This document shows positions 1 through 52,141 of a DNA stretch of 52,141 nt, piece after piece (within the stretch, counting starts at the first letter, position 1; the number at the start of each line of letters is the position of its first letter). The translations under genes were made by a program, and so were the position numbers. The stretch spans positions 1 through 52,141 of the IMG/VR virus record IMGVR_UViG_3300050011_000039, one strand, 5' to 3'. The notes under the pieces were generated by a model. It was not told where the DNA came from and did no database searches. It saw only the letters and a program-made list of their open reading frames with translations. Source of the stretch: a virus.

Positions 1-925
1 CGCCGCTTGCAGCCAGACTCGTTCCTGTCGCCGCCCCAATGTTTGGCGTTACTAGCGTTGGCGACGTATCCACAACAAATTTCGTCCCTGTGCCGGTCTG
101 CGACGCGATAGATGTTGCATTGCCAGATGAGGTTATGACGCCTGTCAAATTAGCATTCGTCGTCACGGTTGAGGCGGCAATGGCTGTGTTGCATCCGAAG
201 CCTGTGCCGCTAGTCCATTTAAGGGCGCTTGCAGAGGTTGAGCACGAAGGCAATGCCAAATCTGAGGGTGTCGTAGCGGTCAATGCGCCAAGAACCGTGT
301 TTGCCGTTTGTGTCGCAAGTGTTGCCGTCAGGGTGCCGGATGTTGTGACTGCACTTGATGGGGTTGAAGATAATACTGTGCCGTCGCCGGTGAAAGTTAC
401 GGAGGTGACAGTGCCGGAGCCGGTACTGGCAGCAACCCACGAGGTATTACCAGAACCATCAGTCTGAAGAACATAAGTATTAGTTCCATTAGTTGCTGGC
501 AGTGTAAAATTAGTTCCCGTTCCTGCTGCTGCTGCGGCTTTCAATGTAACACTGCCGCTAGTAGAACCATTAAAAGTTATCTGTCCGTTGGTTCCTGAAT
601 TAGCCCCCGTTGACATAACGCCGCTTGCAGCCAGACTCGTTCCTGTCGCCGCCCCAATGTTTGGCGTTACTAGCGTTGGCGACGTATCCACAACAAATTT
701 CGTCCCTGTGCCGGTCTGCGACGCGATAGATGTTGCATTGCCAGATGAGGTTATGACGCCTGTCAAATTAGCATTCGTCGTCACGGTTGAGGCGGCAATG
801 GCTGTGTTGCATCCGAAGCCTGTGCCGCTAGTCCATTTAAGGGCGCTTGCAGAGGTTGAGCACGAAGGCAATGCCAAATCTGAGGGTGTCGTAGCGGTCA
901 ATGCGCCAAGAACCGTGTTTGCCGT
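1..925. repeat. Left copy of 925-bp terminal direct repeat
   Basis: This stretch matches 51217-52141 throughout by eye. The copies part exactly where the window begins (base 51216 is g, base 618 is a) and where it ends (base 926 is c, against t at 308). Such boundaries are expected when an assembler reports a circular genome broken at a repeat. Internally it is a 618-bp tandem repeat (1-618, then 619 onward), so the true number of repeat copies in the fibre-like gene is uncertain. Confidence 0.95.
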
Positions 926-1180
926 CTGTGTCGCAAGTGTTGCCGTCAGGGTGCCGGATGTTGTGACTGCACTTGATGGGGTTGAAGATAATACTGTGCC
1001 GTCACCGGTGAAGGTTACGGATGTGACGGAGCCAGAGCCTGCACTAAATGACACACAGCCATATGAGTTAGTAGCTGTGGCGTAATTTAGCCCATAGCCA
1101 GATGTCGTGCAATTTGGTGGTGGAGAATAGGCGAGCGCAGGCGTGGCGATTAGGCAGAGAATGATTATGGCGAGTTTCAT
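1..1180 (-). CDS. Signal-peptide-bearing repetitive fibre-like protein, 5' part (cut by the window edge)
   Basis: This is the N-terminal part of a fibre-like protein that runs off base 1 and continues at the right end of the window. The ATG at 1180 overlaps the stop of the previous gene (ATGA). It begins MKLAIIILCLIATPALA, a Sec-type signal peptide with an AxA cleavage site, then a short Cys-containing stretch. Repeats of 206 residues rich in Thr, Ser, Gly and Ala follow (for example VTSVTFTGDGT). Joined through the 925-bp overlap, the gene spans 1180 to 1 and 51216 to 50327, in frame, about 689 codons. The repeats are typical of phage fibres; a signal peptide is not. Role (adhesin, decoy or side fibre) is unknown. 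Confidence 0.8.
   Translation of the reverse strand, partial: MKLAIIILCLIATPALAYSPPPNCTTSGYGLNYATATNSYGCVSFSAGSGSVTSVTFTGDGTVLSSTPSSAVTTSGTLTATLATQTANTVLGALTATTPSDLALPSCSTSASALKWTSGTGFGCNTAIAASTVTTNANLTGVITSSGNATSIASQTGTGTKFVVDTSPTLVTPNIGAATGTSLAASGVMSTGANSGTNGQITFNGSTSGSVTLKAAAAAGTGTNFTLPATNGTNTYVLQTDGSGNTSWVAASTGSGTVTSVTFTGDGTVLSSTPSSAVTTSGTLTATLATQTANTVLGALTATTPSDLALPSCSTSASALKWTSGTGFGCNTAIAASTVTTNANLTGVITSSGNATSIASQTGTGTKFVVDTSPTLVTPNIGAATGTSLAASG
619..1040. repeat. Second, partial copy of the 618-bp tandem repeat
   Basis: It repeats 1-422 and is identical up to 925. After that it drifts by scattered substitutions until homology fades near 1040. In the protein it is the first 206-residue repeat met after the signal peptide. 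Confidence 0.9.
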
Positions 1181-1464
1181 GTGTTTGCCGGGTACACTGG
1201 TTGCGCAGGTAACGATGTACTGGTTGTGTCCGTGCCATTTGCGATAGCACGTAACGCCACGCCGTTAGTTTTCGTGCAGGTGATCGCTCCACTTGATACT
1301 AAATAGCAATCCCCTGTCAGAGGAACACCTGCTGCGAAGTTGGATGAGCTACCGACAAACAGGTTTCCGCTCGTAAGCGGGAGCTGACTAATGTACTGCC
1401 CGTTTGTCTGAGCGAAAGCCAGTGAGGGGAGAAGCAAGAAAAGGAGAGCTAGGATTTTCTTCAT
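1177..1464 (-). CDS. Small secreted fibre-like protein
   Basis: A 95-aa protein with a clear Sec signal peptide, MKKILALLFLLLPSLAFA, followed by about 77 residues. These resemble one module of a tail-fibre repeat (NLFVGSSSNFAAGVPLTGD, then a Val-Ser-Ser-Gly-Ala strand and a TKTNG turn). I chose the ATG at 1464 because it lies one base after the stop of the fibre gene upstream; the longer frame would overlap that gene. Its stop overlaps the next start. It looks like a fibre module recast as an exported protein. Function unknown. Confidence 0.75.
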   Translation of the reverse strand: MKKILALLFLLLPSLAFAQTNGQYISQLPLTSGNLFVGSSSNFAAGVPLTGDCYLVSSGAITCTKTNGVALRAIANGTDTTSTSLPAQPVYPANT

Positions 1465-1465
1465 G

Positions 1466-3550
1466 TTAATTAGCCGATGAATTCTGGTTAAGTTGTACCT
1501 CACCAAAATCGAATGTGGCATTCGCCAGAACCCATCCTGACGTTCCGGTGAAGATCGTTATCGTCCCGTCGTCCGCAAGGGGTAGCCACCCTTGACCAAC
1601 ATTGACCACACCAGATACTTGAGTCGCAACTTGTGGGCCGAATATCAAAGAATAATCTAAACGACTCCCGGTAAATATCAATGCTCCTGCTGTCGTCGAT
1701 GTCAATTCGATTTTACATTTAACCGCGCTTACAGAATTACGGATTAATCCTAGTGACATAGCTTCTAGGTCTTGCGAGGACCACCCGTATAGCAACCCGC
1801 CCGTCCCGGTAAACGCCACCGCCGGGAATGTAAAGGCCAGCGGGGTTAGCAACGGGGGGTTCCAGTGACCAACCGGCCTAACGAGATCATTAGGCATTTG
1901 ACGTAAATTGTTCGCCGTCATAGAAGGCCCGACGATGGCTGTGGGGAGTGCTACATAGTAAACATCCGCATTCGCGCCATTAAAGTTTACCGCCACCCCG
2001 AAAGTTGTCGCGGTGGAATTGATCGGCGCGGTAACGCTTAAAAACTGGAATCCTGCCAAACTAGAACCAGTGCCGTTAGCCGAGTAGGTCGATCCCGTCA
2101 CGCTGTCTGAAATCGAGATATTCCAAGTTCCCGCTCCCGCTTGGGATTTCTGATAAACGGCGACCCCGAAGGTAACTGTTCGTCCCGCATATAAAGCCAA
2201 TTTGTTGGGAGCGACCGTCCAATTCAGAGATTCCGCTGACGCCGAACCTTTAAGAATCCCCATTGTCCTGTCCGCGCCGGGGTAGGCATTGGCCGTGAAA
2301 TCATCCGCCCATACATTGAGGGTGGTTGCTTTCTTCCAGCCATCAGCAGCTTGCCCTGTAGCCGAAGCGGCCAATGTGCCGGGCACAATGGGCGTAATGG
2401 TCGTTGCAGTAGAGCTGCCAGGGGACGTCCCTCCCAAGGGGGATGGCCCTATTTGAACATTTGTATTTGCGGTCACACCTGTAACACGATTGGCAGTCGC
2501 AGTGGTGATAGCCCCCACCCCGGCGTATCCCCACTTATAAGAATTTCCGCTGATGATAACCAAGTCATTGACTTTAAGCTGTTGGGTATTCGCCGTTAAA
2601 AAGAGCGGGCCGTTATTAGTCGTCTGAAAACTAGTCGAAGAAACGGCTGTTTCGGGGCCAGTCCCGGTCACAAGGGGCTTCGTTATGTAGGCGACGCCGC
2701 TCCATATCTGCCAATTGACGTTCGGGAGGAAATTGTCGTAGCTGACAGGTGCCGAAGTAGTCGTAGCCGCTGTCACATAGGCCGTCGTCGCAATCTTCGT
2801 GCTGTTATCCCCCGGGCTTTGCGTTGTCGCCGTGGAACTGCCGAGCGAAGCCGTGGTCAAGGTTGGACTCGTATCATAAACAAGCTTCCCCGTCCCCGTC
2901 GCCCCCGTCGATGTCACGCCTTCGAAGGTTGTGTGACCACTAACCGTCAAATTCCCCGAAACCGTGCCACTTGATAACGTCGCAGCACCCGTAACCGCCA
3001 ATGTCCCGCCAACAGTCTCGTTCCCCGTAACCGCCAATGTCCCGCCAACAGTCTCGTTCCCCGTAACCGCCAATGTCCCGCCAACAGTCTCGTTCCCCGT
3101 AACCGCCAATGTCGCTACCGTACCGCCCGTGATCGTCGGCAGATATGCCGCGAACGTCAGATTACTAACCGCACCACCGCCAACGCCATCAATCGAAATC
3201 GGGTCAGCCGTCGTTAGCGTCCACAATCCGACATTCGTAGTTCCGCCATTGACGATAATAATCTGCCCGCTAACAACCCCACTCGGCCCCGAAAAATCCT
3301 GCGCCCGATACCATGCGCCAGAGTTGTTAACGACATATATGCCGTTTGTCGTCGTATTAGCTTGGTTTTTGACGAGTACGCGATCAGGCTGTTTGCCCGT
3401 TGAATCGTTCGTATGGTCACTGACAACTACGCCATCAATCGTCTGCGAACCCGTGAGCGCGATAGCACCAGTCGTCGCCGCCACAACAGGCTGCTTGCCA
3501 ATAGTGGCAACAACCGAACCGGCAAACATATCGGTGTATGTTGATGTCAT
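1466..3550 (-). CDS. Tail fibre / receptor-binding protein
   Basis: A 694-aa protein with a conserved-looking N-terminal region (about residues 1-130) of the kind that docks a fibre to the tail. Tandem 12-residue repeats (LAVTGNETVGGT) follow at about 150-190, then Thr/Ser/Gly-rich strands and a larger C-terminal domain that would carry receptor specificity. The ATG at 3550 has AGGAG upstream. A frame start nine bases earlier is a GTG lying inside that ribosome site, so I rejected it. It follows the internal virion genes, as fibre genes do in T7-like order. The receptor cannot be told from sequence. Confidence 0.75.
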   Translation of the reverse strand: MTSTYTDMFAGSVVATIGKQPVVAATTGAIALTGSQTIDGVVVSDHTNDSTGKQPDRVLVKNQANTTTNGIYVVNNSGAWYRAQDFSGPSGVVSGQIIIVNGGTTNVGLWTLTTADPISIDGVGGGAVSNLTFAAYLPTITGGTVATLAVTGNETVGGTLAVTGNETVGGTLAVTGNETVGGTLAVTGAATLSSGTVSGNLTVSGHTTFEGVTSTGATGTGKLVYDTSPTLTTASLGSSTATTQSPGDNSTKIATTAYVTAATTTSAPVSYDNFLPNVNWQIWSGVAYITKPLVTGTGPETAVSSTSFQTTNNGPLFLTANTQQLKVNDLVIISGNSYKWGYAGVGAITTATANRVTGVTANTNVQIGPSPLGGTSPGSSTATTITPIVPGTLAASATGQAADGWKKATTLNVWADDFTANAYPGADRTMGILKGSASAESLNWTVAPNKLALYAGRTVTFGVAVYQKSQAGAGTWNISISDSVTGSTYSANGTGSSLAGFQFLSVTAPINSTATTFGVAVNFNGANADVYYVALPTAIVGPSMTANNLRQMPNDLVRPVGHWNPPLLTPLAFTFPAVAFTGTGGLLYGWSSQDLEAMSLGLIRNSVSAVKCKIELTSTTAGALIFTGSRLDYSLIFGPQVATQVSGVVNVGQGWLPLADDGTITIFTGTSGWVLANATFDFGEVQLNQNSSAN
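2991..3113. repeat. 36-bp tandem repeat in the tail-fibre gene
   Basis: Three perfect 36-bp copies (2991-3026, 3027-3062, 3063-3098) and a partial fourth. Each encodes the 12 residues LAVTGNETVGGT on the minus strand. In-frame copy-number change would lengthen or shorten the shaft without a frameshift. Confidence 0.95.
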
Positions 3551-3611
3551 CGACGGCACTCCTATGTGTGGTGAAGCCTAGCATATATGGTGGAGAAAGT
3601 GAAGAAGGATA

Positions 3612-17635: not shown

Positions 17636-18145
17636 TTATGATGCGACAGAGGGAAGATTAAGTTCGCTAAATAATTCACGAGCCTTGAGATCATAGGCAA
17701 TAGCCGCATCTTCTTTGTTCGCATATCTGCCCAAATGAACTGTGCGCCGGTTTAGTGTAATACACGAGAACCACTTTCCAGTTTTGCTATCAAATGAAAC
17801 GCCCTTGATACCACTCCTGTTATGACGAGGGGCATCCATATTATGCATATTTTGTGAACGATTCACCTGACGAAGATTGGAGATTCTGTTGTCCGTCCTT
17901 ATTCTATTTATATGGTCCGTCTGATCTATTGGCCATTCACCATAAACATAGAACCACGCCAAGCGGTGAGATAAATATCTTTTGCGACCAATACGGATAG
18001 CCAAATACCCATCACCCTGCAAAGTTCCAGCAATCATGCCCTCCCTTGCTTTTGGATTCGGGTTACTCGTTTCGCCACGGGTAAACACCCCCGTTTCAGG
18101 ATCATACCGCAAAACCTTACGAAGATGGTCAATATCAAGCGTCAT
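17636..18145 (-). CDS. HNH homing-type endonuclease with AP2 DNA-binding domain
   Basis: A 169-aa protein with an HNH_3-type core at about 55-100 (LSHRLAWFYVYGEWP, then DHINRIRTDNRISNLR, where His and Asn sit in the metal site). An AP2 domain follows at about 111-162 (GIKGVSFDSKTGKWF, LGRYANKEDAAIAYD). These are free-standing selfish endonucleases that spread between phages. It lies between the scaffold and capsid genes, one base after the scaffold stop. The ATG at 18145 has AGAGG upstream; a longer frame extends into the scaffold gene and is rejected. Confidence 0.9.
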   Translation of the reverse strand: MTLDIDHLRKVLRYDPETGVFTRGETSNPNPKAREGMIAGTLQGDGYLAIRIGRKRYLSHRLAWFYVYGEWPIDQTDHINRIRTDNRISNLRQVNRSQNMHNMDAPRHNRSGIKGVSFDSKTGKWFSCITLNRRTVHLGRYANKEDAAIAYDLKARELFSELNLPSVAS

Positions 18146-18146
18146 A

Positions 18147-19157
18147 TTAACCTCTCTTCTTCTGGTTCTCGCGCCAGCCAACCAACTCGATATACCGGGC
18201 ATGCGCACGGGTATCTTTGTAGTATGTTGGATCGGCACCCCCCATGCGTTTCTCAATCTCCGCAATCTCATTATCAATCGACGCAGCCTGCGATGTTCCA
18301 CCGCCAGCGACAACCGTACTTACCGGATTGATGATACGAGCCTGCGCTGCTAAGTCACGGAGGAACGCGGGATTATTCAGCAATGGCGCACCCGTATTGT
18401 CAACGGCACCCTGAATAGCTTCCCTCGATTGCTCGGAATATGTGCTGAGAAGGTTCTCCACGCGGTTAATCTCGCCGCGATACTCACCACCCCATTCCTT
18501 GCGCAATTCATCCTCAGTCGCCATTTTCGCGGCTGCGATCTGCTTCTCACGCTCGACCATAAAATTGCGCTGCTGCTCATAATATGATGCGAGAATGTCT
18601 TTGACCTGACCATTGTTCAGGTTCATTCCGTGCATGGTTTCGAGCATTTTGCCAACAACCGGCTTGTCGTGTTCTGCTATCGTCAGACCATTAGCAAGAT
18701 TCAGGTCATACTTATCGGCGGCTTCAGGGATACCATTCTCTTTGCGATAAGACGTAATCTGTTCTGGCGTCGCATCCTTTGGCAGCGGCTGTTTCGCCAT
18801 ACCTGACGAGATCAGTTTGTCCTGCTCCTTTAGCTTTTTAATCAAGTCTTGCGGTGAGGCATAGCGTTCAAGTTGCTTGACGTAATCTTTATCGGCACCA
18901 GCCATCTGCTGACGCCAATCGGACGGCCATGTTGGGGTGATTACTTTTTCAGGTGTCTTGCCTGCTTCTGTTGCGCCAACGACAGTTCCTGCATCGCCTT
19001 TAGGCGCAGTTTCTGTTGTCGCAGGAGTTGTTGAGGCTCCCGTGGTGGTTCCTGTTGGCTGCGCAGTTGTGCCAGTATCTGTACTGCCGACATTGGTTGC
19101 TGGGGCTGCGGTTCCTGCATCAGATGCTCCTGTGGTTACTACTGTTTCTTCGGCCAT
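18147..19157 (-). CDS. Capsid assembly scaffolding protein
   Basis: A 336-aa protein. Residues 1-75 are a disordered Thr/Ala/Gly-rich tail. The rest is highly charged and helical (DLIKKLKEQDKLIS, EREKQIAAAKMATEDELRKE), with a basic C-terminus (WRENQKKRG) suited to capsid contact. Its place between portal and capsid genes is that of T7 gp9-like scaffolds. Confidence 0.8.
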   Translation of the reverse strand: MAEETVVTTGASDAGTAAPATNVGSTDTGTTAQPTGTTTGASTTPATTETAPKGDAGTVVGATEAGKTPEKVITPTWPSDWRQQMAGADKDYVKQLERYASPQDLIKKLKEQDKLISSGMAKQPLPKDATPEQITSYRKENGIPEAADKYDLNLANGLTIAEHDKPVVGKMLETMHGMNLNNGQVKDILASYYEQQRNFMVEREKQIAAAKMATEDELRKEWGGEYRGEINRVENLLSTYSEQSREAIQGAVDNTGAPLLNNPAFLRDLAAQARIINPVSTVVAGGGTSQAASIDNEIAEIEKRMGGADPTYYKDTRAHARYIELVGWRENQKKRG

Positions 19158-23617: not shown

Positions 23618-23946
23618 CAGGAGTGTTCACTCCATGAACTTCCATTGTACGTTATCATCGCGCCTCCGTAATTCGACCCGATCACAGGATTCGTCACGCC
23701 ATCAATCGTACCGTCAACCGTGATGTTATAAGTCGCCGCCGCGCCGGAAATATCTTTTATTAACAACAACTGCTTGGCAATCGGCGACGCAGGCAACGTC
23801 AGCGTCACGGCACCTGCATAATTCACATAAACGATGTTGTCTGTCGGCAGGATCGTGTATGTCGATGCCGCAACGGTTTTCGTATTCAGCGCACCGCTGA
23901 TGCTCGATAATCCGAACTCAAGGCTAAACGCATTGATACCCTGCAT
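23617..23946 (-). CDS. Small beta-rich virion protein
   Basis: A 109-aa protein with regular strands (YTILPTDNIVYVNYAGAVTL, DGTIDGVTNPVIGSNYGGAM). The pattern is that of small phage fibre or decoration proteins that carry a short beta-helix or C-terminal cap. Placed directly before the terminase. Role inferred from composition. Confidence 0.55.
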   Translation of the reverse strand: MQGINAFSLEFGLSSISGALNTKTVAASTYTILPTDNIVYVNYAGAVTLTLPASPIAKQLLLIKDISGAAATYNITVDGTIDGVTNPVIGSNYGGAMITYNGSSWSEHS

Positions 23947-23949
23947 GGG

Positions 23950-24558
23950 TTAACCCCTCAGAGCGTTCTTCTCCGCAGCCGATACTTCCTCATGCCGCGC
24001 TTCGACCTTGGCCGAGAACGCTGTCAACGCATCGTGCCGAGCCTCAAGTTCAGCCTGACGCGCACCAAGCCTGTCGGCGTGTTCGTTGAGTGCCTTTTCA
24101 CGAAGGTCAGATGCCAACTCAGCCCGTCTAACCGAACTCTCACGGGAAGAAACAGCACGTTCCAACTCATCAACCTTCGCCATACGCGACGCATGAACAT
24201 CAGCCAGATACTTCTGATCTTTGGCAATCTTTTCTTCATGCTGCTGCACGAACACGCGATGCGCACCATCCAACTCAGCCGTCCGAGCCACATGCTCTTC
24301 AGCCAGCCTTTTCTCTTGCGCATCGAGAGCAGCCTGACGTTCTTCCAAATCCCTATCACGCAAAGCCTTCTCATTCAGCATCTCATGAACTTCCGCATGC
24401 TTCTTGTCGAAGTTTGACAGCATGCTGCCAACCTGCTTCAAGGCATCCTTGTCCGAGATAACCGTTTGCAAAACCTTCGCATGCTCAACCATGAGAGACA
24501 GGGCTTTAAGCTGCCCTTCCTCAGACTGAATCCGCGATAACGCACTATTGTCGAACAT
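23950..24558 (-). CDS. Coiled-coil protein
   Basis: A 202-aa protein that is almost wholly charged heptads from about residue 55 to the end (RDLEERQAALDAQEKRLAEE, RADRLGARQAELEAR-like segments). It predicts a long alpha-helical rod. Its neighbours are small virion proteins, so it may be a minor structural or assembly factor. No enzymatic motif. Confidence 0.6.
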   Translation of the reverse strand: MFDNSALSRIQSEEGQLKALSLMVEHAKVLQTVISDKDALKQVGSMLSNFDKKHAEVHEMLNEKALRDRDLEERQAALDAQEKRLAEEHVARTAELDGAHRVFVQQHEEKIAKDQKYLADVHASRMAKVDELERAVSSRESSVRRAELASDLREKALNEHADRLGARQAELEARHDALTAFSAKVEARHEEVSAAEKNALRG

Positions 24559-24589: not shown

Positions 24590-25498
24590 TTACCCGCGCA
24601 ACGCAAGCTGTTCAGCCAGGATATAATCAACCAGCAGCGTCTGCGCATTACCGCCCGCAGCCTGCGAGAAGATACCAACCGACGGAGCCAGCAGCGCAGT
24701 CGTCGCAACCGCGAGCAACTGTGTCGCAACCAACGTGCCGTCGATGTAGTAATTCGCGTTACCCGCATTATCAATATCAACGCGGTAAGCGTGATTACCA
24801 GCCGTATCCAGCGTATAGGTCGAGGGCGCAGGCTGGTTATTCAGAGCCGCGCACTTCGTAATCTGCGCAGTCCCACCAGCATTAATCGACACCGCATACA
24901 GCGTCTTCGCCGTCGCGTTCAGATCATCCAGAACGAAGCAAGCCGCGTTCGTCGATGTCGCCGTAACCGTCACGCCAGAAATCGTAAACGGCACACTCAG
25001 CGTCACAGCGTCAATCAGCCCGAAGTTCGCGTTCACATCCGTAATCGCGGAGATCGTGCCAAGCGCAGCCTCAAACTTCGTTTCGCCATTAGAGACCAGA
25101 AAATTCCGCGCACCCACAAGCTGGCTACCCTGAACCGCCATCGTGTAGGTCGAGCCGCCGCCCGTTTCCAACTGCACGGCACCCTCAGCCGTACCAACCA
25201 AAAGAGCAGGCGTCTGACCCGTACCGCCATTCGAACCAGCCAACGCATGCCACTTATACGCATTCAGCGCATAACCCAGAAAATCATCAAACTGCCGCGC
25301 ATACAAAACCGGATGCGAAACCTTGTACGACGCGCCATCCAGCGTCTTGTTCATCTTGAACAACCGCAATCCACGGAGGCAATCACCCGTCAGAAACGGC
25401 GCATACTGCCCATCCGTTTCCTGCGAATCCGTGTGACCATCCAACCCAAGAAGCCGTCCAACCAGCGACTTCACAATATCCGATGTACCTGCGGTCAT
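24590..25498 (-). CDS. Virion surface-type protein with sandwich-like C-terminus
   Basis: A 302-aa protein. The first 100 residues are mixed (KSLVGRLLGLDGHTD, FDDFLGYALNAYKW). The rest is strand-rich, with a region reminiscent of LamG or concanavalin-type sandwiches (AYRVDIDNAGNANYYIDGTL, then SVGIFSQAAGGN). Such domains bind glycans on phage surfaces. A 322-aa plus-strand frame over it is a shadow. Exact role unknown. Confidence 0.6.
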   Translation of the reverse strand: MTAGTSDIVKSLVGRLLGLDGHTDSQETDGQYAPFLTGDCLRGLRLFKMNKTLDGASYKVSHPVLYARQFDDFLGYALNAYKWHALAGSNGGTGQTPALLVGTAEGAVQLETGGGSTYTMAVQGSQLVGARNFLVSNGETKFEAALGTISAITDVNANFGLIDAVTLSVPFTISGVTVTATSTNAACFVLDDLNATAKTLYAVSINAGGTAQITKCAALNNQPAPSTYTLDTAGNHAYRVDIDNAGNANYYIDGTLVATQLLAVATTALLAPSVGIFSQAAGGNAQTLLVDYILAEQLALRG

Positions 25499-37869: not shown

Positions 37870-38499
37870 ATGAATAAAAATCTTCGATCATTGCCTAAAA
37901 TGAAAAAAGGTAAAACGAAAGATAAAAAGAAAGTATGTTCAATAAAAGATTGTGGGCGACCAGCCATATGCCGATGGATGTGCGAGAAACATTATTCAAG
38001 AATGAAGAAACACGGGACACTGGATGTATCTCGACTTGTAATAGATGATGTTATGGAAAGCTTTTGGGCGCGAACCAATAAAAAGGGCAAAGACGATTGC
38101 TGGAACTGGACTGGTTCTACAAGGGGAAGCGATCCAAAAAGGCAGTATGCTAGACATTGGAATGGTTCTGCATCCGAAAATGGACACCGATTCTCATATA
38201 GAAAATTTGTTGGAGAAATCCCAAAAGGTTTATGTGTATGTCACCATTGCGACAATCCATTGTGCGTAAACCCGCATCATTTATTTATTGGTACGCATAA
38301 AGATAATATGGCTGATATGAAAAAAAAGGGTAGGGCTTATGATGGATATGGAGAAGATAGGCCAATATCAGTCCTGACAAACAAACAAGCTGATGAAATC
38401 AGAAAATCCAGTCTTACAAGGAAGCAATTAAGAGAAAAGTATCAAGTTTCAGACTCAACAATAGGCCGCGTTCTTCGCGGAGAAAGCTATGTTGATTAA
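37870..38499 (+). CDS. HNH endonuclease with N-terminal basic and C-terminal HTH-like parts
   Basis: A 209-aa protein. Residues 1-50 are basic with a Cys/His cluster ([18 protein letters not shown]). Residues 80-150 are HNH_3: [45 protein letters not shown]. The last 50 residues read [19 protein letters not shown], a DNA-binding helix-turn-helix of the NUMOD kind. It is a selfish homing-type nuclease with its own promoter, between exonuclease and helicase; its stop overlaps the helicase start. Confidence 0.9.
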
Positions 38500-41605: not shown

Positions 41606-42250
41606 ATGAAGATAAGTTTTGAACGTCGCTTCTCATCCGAAATCGCTTTTGAGGTTGAGATCGATGATAGGCACAAGACAGACACGCTTCGCACTCAACG
41701 AGGTGAAGCCATCAAGCAAGCCTTAAAAGAAAAACGCAACCTGCGCGGCAGCAACCTGAGCGACAGCGACCTGAGCGGCAGCAACCTGAGCGGCAGCAAC
41801 CTGAGCGACAGCAACCTGAGCGGCAGCAACCTGAGCGACAGCGACCTGAGCGGCAGCAACCTGAGCGGCAGCAACCTGCGCGGCAGCGACCTGCGCGGCA
41901 GCAACCTGAGCGACAGCGACCTGAGCGGCAGCGACCTGAGCGGTGTGCCATTCATCAAGAATATTCATCAAACGCTCTACAATGCCGCCTCTGTGCCTCC
42001 TGAAGCTTTGGATATGTCAACATGGCATCACTCTTGTGGAACCACTCATTGCCGTGCAGGTTGGATTGTTAAGCTTGCTGGTGAAGGCGGCGCAGCTCTT
42101 GAATGGGCAATTGGTACACCAGCCGCAGCCGCGATGATTTACATCAAAAGCGATCCAAAGATCGAGCGGATACCTAATTTCTATGCCTCGAATGAGGACG
42201 CACTGGCTGATATGAAGCGGTTGGCAGATTTGGAAAAGGCCGCCGCATGA
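41606..42250 (+). CDS. Pentapeptide-repeat protein
   Basis: A 214-aa protein. Residues 45-114 are fourteen near-perfect pentapeptides (NLSGS, DLSGS, NLRGS types), which fold as a right-handed square beta-helix of about 3.5 coils. The C-terminal domain (HHSCGTTHCRAGWIVKLAGE, later PNFYASNEDALADMKRLAD) occurs in other phage pentapeptide proteins. Roles of this class include DNA mimicry, such as gyrase protection, but no specific target is evident. The central Ser/Gly content is unusually uniform. Confidence 0.85.
   Translation: MKISFERRFSSEIAFEVEIDDRHKTDTLRTQRGEAIKQALKEKRNLRGSNLSDSDLSGSNLSGSNLSDSNLSGSNLSDSDLSGSNLSGSNLRGSDLRGSNLSDSDLSGSDLSGVPFIKNIHQTLYNAASVPPEALDMSTWHHSCGTTHCRAGWIVKLAGEGGAALEWAIGTPAAAAMIYIKSDPKIERIPNFYASNEDALADMKRLADLEKAAA
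41738..41947. repeat. 15-bp tandem repeats encoding pentapeptides
   Basis: Fourteen 15-bp units built from AACCTGAGCGGCAGC and close variants (GAC for AAC, CGC for AGC, GAC for GGC). The near-identity at DNA level suggests recent expansion or gene-conversion-like spread. Confidence 0.95.
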
Positions 42251-48193: not shown

Positions 48194-48232
48194 ACCAGCC
48201 CCTCTTTGCGAAAGCATACGGGCTGGTTTTCT
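48194..48232 (+). terminator. Rho-independent terminator of the plus-strand operon
   Basis: ACCAGCCC (48194-48201) pairs with GGGCTGGT (48220-48227), 18-nt loop, then TTTTCT. It lies between convergent operons; the U-tract favours the plus strand only. Confidence 0.75.
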
Positions 48233-48476
48233 ATATCCGCTTCGCCCACCCCGCCACATCCCCCAATGCCTTCTTACACCCATCCCACGCCCCGTAAAGC
48301 TTCGTGACGTACAGCGCAACGTCTTTCTGGGTATAACCGCCCATCGGAACCGCAGGCGCGTCAGGACACGTTAGGAGAGCCGCAGGGGGGCGTTCCTTCT
48401 GGATTTCAATGACTGGCGGGGGCGACGCGCAGCCTATTAAGAGCGTTAACAAGAACAGGGGCGGTAGGCGCATCAT
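48231..48476 (-). CDS. Rz1-like outer-membrane spanin lipoprotein
   Basis: An 81-aa protein with an N-terminal signal and lipobox (FLLTLLIGC, Cys being the lipidated residue), a Pro-rich segment right after it (PPPVIEIQKERPPAALL) and a short helical tail. This is the o-spanin layout. Its start lies inside the Rz-like gene in another frame, 71 bp of overlap, as in lambda Rz/Rz1. It would join inner and outer membranes in the last lysis step. Confidence 0.8.
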   Translation of the reverse strand: MMRLPPLFLLTLLIGCASPPPVIEIQKERPPAALLTCPDAPAVPMGGYTQKDVALYVTKLYGAWDGCKKALGDVAGWAKRI

Positions 48477-48747
48477 CGCCTTTAGGTGCGTTTTGTATGG
48501 CATTGATGTTCTCCAGTTGCTTCTGTAAGTCTGCATTCGCCTGTGTGAGCTTGGTAACAATTGCCGTTTGGTTAATCGTATCGGCTTTAACCGCCTGTTT
48601 CTCAGCCGCTACGTCCAGGCCGGATGTTATTTGGGCGACTTGAAGCTGATAGGTAAGGGCTTGCATACGGTAGTGGTAAATCAGGATGCCCTCTATCGCC
48701 ATAATAGCGAGGCATGCGATCAGGAGATATTTTGTTAGTCCGGTCAT
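48406..48747 (-). CDS. Rz-like inner-membrane spanin
   Basis: A 113-aa protein: one N-terminal transmembrane helix (YLLIACLAIMAIEGILIYHY, 6-25) and a periplasmic coiled coil (VTKLTQANADLQKQLENINA). The layout is that of an i-spanin. It overlaps the SleB-type hydrolase by 4 bp and contains the start of the Rz1-like gene. Confidence 0.8.
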   Translation of the reverse strand: MTGLTKYLLIACLAIMAIEGILIYHYRMQALTYQLQVAQITSGLDVAAEKQAVKADTINQTAIVTKLTQANADLQKQLENINAIQNAPKGDDAPTAPVLVNALNRLRVAPASH

Positions 48748-49187
48748 CGTATAGCCTCCAAGTCAAAATAGTACCTATCCCCGTCAACTAGACACGGATT
48801 CTTGCCTTTTGACCAGTACGGGGGCGCACATGCCTTGCTATCGAAATACGATACCCCTCCGTTTGTCCAGTCCGGTATATCCAGCATCATTGCGTTTTTG
48901 GCGATTTCCATAGCCTCGACATAGGCAGGATATGAAGGGTCGTTCTGCCCGATGTTGATTACGCGGTCACGATTAGCGCCAGGATCCCAGACTTGATATT
49001 GCGCTGGTCTTAGGCATACCCCGCGAACCGTAATGCCGCCGAGCCAGTGAAGGTTGGCGTTGGCGCGGTTCATAATCGTTAATGCTGTGCCTGTCATGCC
49101 ACGGGTTCCGAGGGATTCGGACTCACCTAGGCAGGTAAGCGCGAGGATTTGGAGGGCGTTAAATTGTGCTAGTGGGTCGTCTGCCAT
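48744..49187 (-). CDS. SleB-type cell-wall hydrolase (endolysin)
   Basis: A 147-aa protein of the Hydrolase_2/SleB family: LTCLGESES with the likely catalytic Glu22, GTALTIMNRANANLHW, then CLRPAQYQVWDPGANRD, and a C-terminal GVSYFDSKACAPPYW region. It has no signal peptide, so it needs a holin. It would cut peptidoglycan glycan strands or stem bonds in lysis. It lies between holin-like genes and spanins. Confidence 0.85.
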   Translation of the reverse strand: MADDPLAQFNALQILALTCLGESESLGTRGMTGTALTIMNRANANLHWLGGITVRGVCLRPAQYQVWDPGANRDRVINIGQNDPSYPAYVEAMEIAKNAMMLDIPDWTNGGVSYFDSKACAPPYWSKGKNPCLVDGDRYYFDLEAIR

Positions 49188-49983: not shown

Positions 49984-50325
49984 TCACTCCATTGGCGTTA
50001 CGGTTATGTTTGTTACGTCTGGTTGCTTGCCTTTCGTGATGCTTTCAATGTCTTCCGTCGCTCCATCTGGTTCCGTCGTGCGTTTAAAGAAGATCGCAGC
50101 CGCGCCAGAGGTGAGCAATGCGCTCACACCGCCGACATAAGTCAAGACAGATGTGAAAAGCTCTTGCGTGGGAAATGGCTTTTCGCGCCAATAGCCGACA
50201 ATATCCATGCCTACGCCGAGAATTAGGACAACTGCCAGCATCGTTGCGTTGACGAGCATTACCCAACGGGCGATGTCGTGGGTTTTGTTGTCCTTGCCGG
50301 TGGTAAGGTTGGATAGGATGGTCAT
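49984..50325 (-). CDS. Holin-like membrane protein
   Basis: A 113-aa protein with two hydrophobic segments (WVMLVNATMLAVVLILGVGM, 20-39; LTYVGGVSALLTSGAAAIFF, 60-79) and a charged C-terminal tail. The ATG at 50325 comes one base after the fibre-like stop; a longer frame lies inside that gene. Topology, size and place before the hydrolase fit a holin. Confidence 0.65.
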   Translation of the reverse strand: MTILSNLTTGKDNKTHDIARWVMLVNATMLAVVLILGVGMDIVGYWREKPFPTQELFTSVLTYVGGVSALLTSGAAAIFFKRTTEPDGATEDIESITKGKQPDVTNITVTPME

Positions 50326-50326
50326 A

Positions 50327-52141
50327 TTAAAGCCCTGTGCAAGTACATGCGCCCGTTGCTCCGACAACTGTTGTGCAATATCCAGCCGCCCCGCCCGTTG
50401 TCCAGCAAGCAGCCTGACCTGCATGAGCAGAGGCATTTTGAAGTGTAAATTCTCCGGGCGTGGCTGATGAAGTCCCAACAGCAACCGACCCCTGAACAAT
50501 CATCCCATTCGTCGGAGCTGCCGTCACACCAGCGTAGCTTGTGCCGATTGCGACATTGCCGTACACATCGAGTTCGGATGCTGGTGATGTCGTCCCAATC
50601 CCGACGTTGCCGCTATTCGAAATTCGCATATACTCGGACCAGGTAGCTGAATTATTCCTCTCTAGGAATAGCAGGCTGCCATTGTCAGAACCGCTGGAGA
50701 AGTTAGGCGAAGCCAGTTTCCAGCCGTACCCGCCGCCTGCAGGCGAGAAGTTGAATTCAATGCCCCCAGATTGCGCGGTTGCGGTACGTCCAAGAACGAT
50801 TTGTGCATCGTCAATTGTCGGCCTGCCTGTAGAGAGATTACCGGCCGCGAAAGCCGCGCCGGATATATAAAGGCGGCTCGAGGTGCTGGCGGCTCCGACT
50901 TGAAGAGGCGCTTCCGGCGAGGTTGTCCCGATCCCGACACTGCCTGCTGTCGTGAGTGTCATCAACGCGCCGTAAGCGCCGCCATTGATCGAGCTGCTCC
51001 AGGTAAGGTTCCCCGAAGGGTTGGCTGCGCCCTGTACGGGTTGCAGTTCCTCGATCATATCGACTGCTTGGCTGGCGGACGTGTTTGTCTCCCAGCCGCG
51101 TCCGTCAAAGTGGAGGCGCGGTGACCATTGTTGGGCGCCTAAAGCCGCCGCCGTCGTGTTGGTTAGCACGAGACCGTTGGTGCTGGTCACGCCGATGGAT
51201 TGGGTGTCGGTAACCGCGCCGCTTGCAGCCAGACTCGTTCCTGTCGCCGCCCCAATGTTTGGCGTTACTAGCGTTGGCGACGTATCCACAACAAATTTCG
51301 TCCCTGTGCCGGTCTGCGACGCGATAGATGTTGCATTGCCAGATGAGGTTATGACGCCTGTCAAATTAGCATTCGTCGTCACGGTTGAGGCGGCAATGGC
51401 TGTGTTGCATCCGAAGCCTGTGCCGCTAGTCCATTTAAGGGCGCTTGCAGAGGTTGAGCACGAAGGCAATGCCAAATCTGAGGGTGTCGTAGCGGTCAAT
51501 GCGCCAAGAACCGTGTTTGCCGTTTGTGTCGCAAGTGTTGCCGTCAGGGTGCCGGATGTTGTGACTGCACTTGATGGGGTTGAAGATAATACTGTGCCGT
51601 CGCCGGTGAAAGTTACGGAGGTGACAGTGCCGGAGCCGGTACTGGCAGCAACCCACGAGGTATTACCAGAACCATCAGTCTGAAGAACATAAGTATTAGT
51701 TCCATTAGTTGCTGGCAGTGTAAAATTAGTTCCCGTTCCTGCTGCTGCTGCGGCTTTCAATGTAACACTGCCGCTAGTAGAACCATTAAAAGTTATCTGT
51801 CCGTTGGTTCCTGAATTAGCCCCCGTTGACATAACGCCGCTTGCAGCCAGACTCGTTCCTGTCGCCGCCCCAATGTTTGGCGTTACTAGCGTTGGCGACG
51901 TATCCACAACAAATTTCGTCCCTGTGCCGGTCTGCGACGCGATAGATGTTGCATTGCCAGATGAGGTTATGACGCCTGTCAAATTAGCATTCGTCGTCAC
52001 GGTTGAGGCGGCAATGGCTGTGTTGCATCCGAAGCCTGTGCCGCTAGTCCATTTAAGGGCGCTTGCAGAGGTTGAGCACGAAGGCAATGCCAAATCTGAG
52101 GGTGTCGTAGCGGTCAATGCGCCAAGAACCGTGTTTGCCGT
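50327..52141 (-). CDS. Signal-peptide-bearing repetitive fibre-like protein, 3' part (cut by the window edge)
   Basis: This is the C-terminal part of the gene that begins at 1180. Reading in from the right edge it repeats the 206-residue unit, then leaves it after LAASG and runs into a region with GSVGIGTTSPEAPLQVG and GNVGIGTTSPASELDVYG, the repeated GIGTTSP turns found in phage fibres and chaperone-capped tails. A Cys-rich end follows (CWTTGGAAGYCTTVVGATGA, then CTCTGL). The open frame has no true start here; the first in-frame ATG at 52117 lies inside the repeat. The stop at 50327 is one base before the holin-like start. Confidence 0.8.
   Translation of the reverse strand, partial: TANTVLGALTATTPSDLALPSCSTSASALKWTSGTGFGCNTAIAASTVTTNANLTGVITSSGNATSIASQTGTGTKFVVDTSPTLVTPNIGAATGTSLAASGVMSTGANSGTNGQITFNGSTSGSVTLKAAAAAGTGTNFTLPATNGTNTYVLQTDGSGNTSWVAASTGSGTVTSVTFTGDGTVLSSTPSSAVTTSGTLTATLATQTANTVLGALTATTPSDLALPSCSTSASALKWTSGTGFGCNTAIAASTVTTNANLTGVITSSGNATSIASQTGTGTKFVVDTSPTLVTPNIGAATGTSLAASGAVTDTQSIGVTSTNGLVLTNTTAAALGAQQWSPRLHFDGRGWETNTSASQAVDMIEELQPVQGAANPSGNLTWSSSINGGAYGALMTLTTAGSVGIGTTSPEAPLQVGAASTSSRLYISGAAFAAGNLSTGRPTIDDAQIVLGRTATAQSGGIEFNFSPAGGGYGWKLASPNFSSGSDNGSLLFLERNNSATWSEYMRISNSGNVGIGTTSPASELDVYGNVAIGTSYAGVTAAPTNGMIVQGSVAVGTSSATPGEFTLQNASAHAGQAACWTTGGAAGYCTTVVGATGACTCTGL
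51217..52141. repeat. Right copy of 925-bp terminal direct repeat
   Basis: It equals bases 1-925 throughout by eye. One and a half copies of the 618-bp unit (51217-51834 and 51835-52141) make it up. The left border is sharp: 51216 is g, whereas the base before the second unit is a. Confidence 0.95.

Follow-up and report, generated by a model that had tools for sequence, protein, structure and literature searches.

The window analyzed here is the whole of virus record IMGVR_UViG_3300050011_000039, a stretch of 52,141 nucleotides that carries portal, tail, and lysis genes. One of its genes, ORF3, is best read as a member of a class of phage late genes that have the virion tail genes on one side and the lysis cassette on the other, and that encode fibre-shaped proteins predicted from sequence to be exported by the Sec route. 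We lean toward a more specific account of these proteins, as late, Sec-exported, disulphide-stapled fibre adhesins that are probably not part of the virion and would be freed at lysis. The features on which the analysis draws are as follows.

1–1180, minus strand: ORF3, N-terminal part (signal peptide, Cys hairpin, A module, B spacer, start of second A module)
1130–1180, minus strand: predicted Sec signal peptide of ORF3, MKLAIIILCLIATPALA (rule-based; predicted cleavage before Y18)
1055–1111, minus strand: C24-x17-C42 hairpin-like motif just past the signal peptide
809–862, minus strand: C107-x16-C124 pair of the A module (predicted β-hairpin)
191–244, minus strand: Cys pair of the second A module
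50327–52141, minus strand: ORF3, C-terminal part by circular joining (GIGTTSP fibre region, then Cys-rich tail)
50915–50935, minus strand: GIGTTSP motif 1
50582–50602, minus strand: GIGTTSP motif 2 (surrounding stretch matches Bd2133, 8OND, and tail-fibre PHROGs)
1177–1464, minus strand: ORF2, 95 amino acids (predicted signal MKKILALLFLLLPSLAFA cleaved before Q; one fibre module, GDCYLVSSGAITC)
1466–3559, minus strand: fibre1, a 697-amino acid tail-fibre-type protein (no signal peptide, one Cys; candidate virion fibre)
49984–50325, minus strand: holin-like small membrane protein, ATG at 50325 (one nucleotide past ORF3; no family confirmation)
48744–49187, minus strand: endolysin, a cell-wall hydrolase of the SleB type (PF07486)
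48406–48747, minus strand: Rz-like inner-membrane spanin (weak PHROG match)
48231–48560: Rz1-like lipoprotein frame, overlapping the Rz-like gene

Organization of ORF3

The ATG of ORF3 is at position 1180 on the minus strand, and its reading frame leaves the contig at position 1. The contig ends are identical over 925 nucleotides (51217–52141 equals 1–925), and owing to a 618-nucleotide repeat, a terminal overlap of 307 nucleotides is compatible as well. Once joined, ORF3 is a single open frame with its stop at 50327, encoding 689 amino acids for the 925-nucleotide overlap or 895 amino acids for the 307-nucleotide overlap. An earlier note, made from the window's sequence, had described 206-residue repeats and GIGTTSP motifs like those of tail fibres, following a clean signal peptide with an AxA site. 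The repeats are real, with a period of 618 nucleotides or 206 amino acids, though in the minimal reading they amount to just A-B-A, in which two ~137-amino acid A modules flank a ~69-amino acid B spacer. Because the contig break falls within the repeat, the A modules of ORF3 number two or three. Structure prediction of the A module as a monomer gave a poor model (mean pLDDT of 56.5) except at the hairpin (local pLDDT about 80).

Both GIGTTSP motifs fall in the C-terminal half of ORF3, which also has a four-cysteine tail. The likeness of this half to tail fibres is borne out by matches to two tail-fibre families (phrog_18345, 2.9e-8; phrog_9942, 1.3e-5). Searches of ORF3 against Pfam and NCBIfam returned no family, and a domain search showed the Peptidase_S74 domain to be absent. 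No direct relatives of the whole of ORF3 were found in IMG/VR through exact peptides, and annotated phage records had only the GIGTTSP region in common with it.

Gene neighborhood

The genes for fibre1, ORF2, and ORF3 are consecutive with almost no gaps, and the stop codon of ORF2 overlaps the start codon of ORF3 (ATGA). These are followed by the holin-like ORF, the SleB endolysin, and the Rz/Rz1-like genes, in that order. The suggestion that ORF3 is expressed just before the lysis genes thus holds for gene position, the holin-like ORF beginning one nucleotide on; as for expression, gene order is all that can be read. The presence of spanin-like genes suggests that the host is a diderm, in which case export would end in the periplasm. 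No tRNAs were found, and genome contigs scanned for prophages, using the internal virion protein (A2) and module A3 as queries, gave no matches.

Predicted signal peptides

Signal peptides were called with a rule-based Sec test, for which the E. coli signals of OmpA, PhoA, MalE, and DsbA served as positive controls and were accepted, whereas LacI was rejected. The ORF3 signal opens with positive charge and continues with a hydrophobic core and the AxA site that the earlier note had described, and its score by this rule groups with those of the four E. coli controls. The mature protein is predicted to begin with YSPPPNC. At a cut-off of 4.6, ORF3 and the upstream ORF2 are the sole positives among all genes of the window, and the positive rate of the test was at most 1.5% among 268 genes of at least 200 amino acids from other phages.

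Fibre modules compared with ordinary fibres

A scan of IMG/VR with module A yielded 41 loci. Among 35 non-redundant module A genes, the rule calls a signal peptide in 25, and inspection by eye adds L022, L025, and L028, bringing the number to 28 of 35. A second, Cys-bearing module, with the query taken from ORF2, occurred at 11 loci, all 11 signal-positive, a few of them with imperfect cleavage sites. The control was provided by fibres that share the adaptor domain of fibre1. Only one of 70 non-redundant fibres was positive by rule, that of a relative of the window phage (G001, discussed below), and one additional control fibre, L149, was positive by eye. The premise that virion fibres should be signal-less, on which the earlier note relied, fits by rule 69 of the 70 ordinary adaptor-domain fibres. 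The difference in signal frequency between module carriers and ordinary fibres is large (Fisher p = 4e-15), with the counts not fully independent, as the carriers share modules and come from related phages. In seven annotated phage records, none of the fibre genes and their neighbors were signal-positive. At the level of sequence, this comparison of module carriers with ordinary fibres strongly supports the suggestion of an exported-type phage protein with fibre architecture that is unlike the ordinary fibres put together in the cytoplasm.

The carriers are dozens of phages of different kinds, known almost solely from environmental DNA; the record name of one, L159, hints at the genome of an isolate instead of a metagenome. 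Phage records and plasmids searched by tblastn with several of the signal-bearing fibres gave almost no matches. At L003:15258-17450 (L019), a single frame joins the beginning of an internal virion protein with ORF3-like fibre repeats, a fusion that arose either by recombination or through chimeric assembly.

Paired cysteines

Both cysteines of module A are invariant across 16 phage sequences and frame the predicted hairpin. Signal-bearing fibres contain 1.84 Cys per 100 amino acids versus 0.73 for ordinary fibres, a 2.5-fold difference, and have even Cys counts in 43 of 49 cases versus 22 of 59 (Fisher p = 6e-8), figures subject to ascertainment, since Cys pairs are part of each module query. 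Three module A carriers that have complete starts and lack a signal (L049, L054, and L059) are Cys-poor. Disulphides are not normally formed in the cytoplasm, and the paired cysteines therefore support export independently of the signal prediction.

Relatives of the window phage

Phage G001 (IMGVR 3300037187_000021) matches the window at 66% in the tail tube protein and at 66–67% in the internal virion protein. Its orthologue of fibre1 carries a signal peptide and eight cysteines, whereas fibre1 of the window has no signal and a single Cys. Downstream of this orthologue is a string of signal-bearing genes. This array includes a syntenic 671-amino acid fibre-like protein with a signal, a Cys pair, a glycine-rich linker, and repeats, and also a 472-amino acid signal-bearing fibre with a Peptidase_S74 chaperone domain (L012:4872-6290). 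No signal-less fibre was seen adjoining the array.

The tail tube protein has no match in G006 (57,960 nucleotides), which is therefore a different phage. G006 encodes three consecutive signal-bearing proteins composed partly of the same modules. A small signal-bearing family, A1/A5, is common to G001 and G006; its model is a β-rich domain (pLDDT 69) that resembles a tail fibre of an Agrobacterium phage as well as capsid cement proteins.

Two side observations concern these genomes. The small exported-type family A5 (L012:892-1386, L012:4369-4872, and L015:1067-1552) has two conserved cysteines and is without a PHROG or Pfam match. In G006, a 443-amino acid protein (L015:4855-6186) contains a long ATRAATDDATDDAT repeat.

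Virion or non-virion location

The chief alternative to a non-virion product is that the exported fibres serve the virion itself as adhesins, which would fold and form disulphides in the periplasm during cytoplasmic assembly of heads and tails, and attach to the virion once lysis mixes the compartments. Gene order bears on both accounts. In several phages, signal-bearing fibre genes lie 3' of a signal-less tail fibre and 5' of the lysis genes. L159 has, in sequence, genes for a baseplate wedge, a structural protein, a canonical tail fibre that lacks a signal, a fibre assembly protein, a signal-bearing fibre, and an endolysin, and L040 is similar. Because L159, L040, and the window each have a separate signal-less fibre, an extra, non-virion product is favored. 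On the other side, the signal-bearing fibre occupies the tail-fibre slot in two phages, directly after a baseplate wedge gene in L044 and after an internal virion protein in L037. G001 likewise argues for an exported virion fibre, at least in that phage, as its fibre1 orthologue bears a signal with no signal-less fibre nearby, and its S74-bearing fibre and the resemblance of the A1/A5 fold to tail fibre and cement proteins point the same way. No precedent for a Sec-exported virion fibre was found in the open-access literature, and we consider virion attachment unlikely overall, though it is the strongest of the alternatives.

It is improbable that the hydrophobic N-termini are uncleaved anchors or accidents rather than functional signals, with the proteins staying in the cytoplasm or virion. 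This would fit with the rule-based nature of the prediction and with the poor or lipobox-like sites of some members (L154 and L161). However, positively charged n-regions and AxA|Q-like sites are retained while the signal sequences diverge, and the signals coincide with even Cys numbers against a control rate of about 1.5%.

That joined ORF3 is an artefact of the contig ends or of a frameshift, its signal belonging to another gene, is very improbable: the break in the repeat leaves the copy number uncertain, but positions 1–1180 hold, in a single frame and before any joining, the signal, the Cys hairpin, one complete A module, and the beginning of another, intact genes of relatives show the same order, and the upstream gene, with its ATGA overlap, has a signal of its own. 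A frameshift, raised in the earlier note, and a mis-joined signal were both rejected.

Comparison with known systems

The best solved relative of ORF3 is Bd2133 (8OND; phmmer E of 4.7e-7 over the C-terminal GIGTTSP-type region). Bd2133 is one of the mosaic adhesive trimer (MAT) proteins, exported fibre-like adhesins of Bdellovibrio bacteriovorus that include S74 members, such as Bd3182, as well as non-S74 members (PMC10769870). MATs have a conserved β-rich domain of ~130 amino acids straight after the signal and form a trimeric β-helical fibre; tips are exchanged between members, and some tips have disulphides (PMC10769870). ORF3 is similar to these in having a Sec signal, by rule, and a phage-tail-fibre-like β-region with GIGTTSP-type repeats, and the signal-bearing phage fibres also comprise S74 (in G001) and non-S74 members. 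However, MATs are encoded in the predator's chromosome and act on prey, whereas ORF3 is a late phage gene beside a lysis cassette, and the ORF3 protein starts, past its signal, with a short Cys hairpin. We do not classify the phage proteins as MATs, since they are phage genes and the comparison covered the signal and the fibre region.

Ordinary tail fibres (phrog_18345, phrog_9942, and phrog_11518; GIGTTSP and S74) have modules, repeats, and genome position in common with the ORF3 class. They differ in being without a signal peptide (1 of 70 positive by rule) and Cys-poor, with no excess of even counts.

T5 Llp, Cor, and Lom-type proteins are exported phage superinfection factors that are small lipoproteins or outer-membrane barrels. 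Like these, ORF3 is predicted to be exported from the infected cell and would act on receptors or the envelope. Unlike these, ORF3 encodes a fibre-shaped mosaic protein, and the likeness drawn here is one of description.

Possible function

In the preferred reading, that of a non-virion adhesin, the ORF3 protein would cross the inner membrane and have its signal removed, and would then form intramolecular disulphides and trimerize in the periplasm. Lysis would free it. With least certainty, its tip might bind host envelope glycans or the phage receptor, and this might mask receptors on the infected cell and on debris, as an anti-superinfection factor or decoy, or the protein might have some other late role at the envelope. 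The late position, release at lysis, and fibre architecture are what suggest masking or a decoy; the analysis of ORF3 identified no lectin or enzyme tip and no receptor or decoy activity. The roles put forward in the earlier note (surface coat, receptor decoy, or factor against superinfection) are at this stage guesses.

A broader proposal is plausible, but we hold it more tentatively. The window phage and others with such genes may represent an unrecognized, widespread class of phages, mostly of uncultured hosts, that make a second, outside-cell set of fibres. These would be mosaic adhesins, Sec-exported and disulphide-stapled, that form no part of the virion and are made just before lysis to control binding at the host surface. 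They might also be a phage counterpart of the bacterial MAT adhesins, or the source from which those arose. The Bdellovibrio link suggests a route from phage fibres to bacterial adhesins, or the reverse. In the literature covered, which was open access with few subscription journals or preprints, we found no report of signal-bearing phage fibres or of a phage use for them, and this silence is limited evidence of novelty.

Phage fibres are commonly viewed as cytoplasmic virion parts, and 'tail fibre' is the label that gene finders give to proteins like ORF3. Should a sizeable class of them prove to be exported, predicting host range from their genes would give wrong results for that class. Either of two ideas could then be tested: that phages secrete adhesins as a further layer of their interaction with the host, or that virions can be assembled by a new route, with fibres made in the periplasm.

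Other genes of the window

Beside the terminase of the window (23620–24558) lie two genes, one of coiled-coil type and the other small and of structural type, that have apparent relatives within the G001 array (L012:1402-2361); the two look like a movable pair. Also adjoining the terminase region is a 302-amino acid, signal-less structural-type protein (24590–25498) without a PHROG match. As read from the sequence, two HNH-type homing endonuclease-like genes occur, one (17636–18313) a frame overlapping the gene that precedes the major capsid region, and the other at 37870–38499. A pentapeptide-like protein (41606–42250; also L061:6899-7741) has many SNLSGSDLS repeats after a conserved start, MKISFERRFSSEIAFEVE, and a relative of it occurs in G001.
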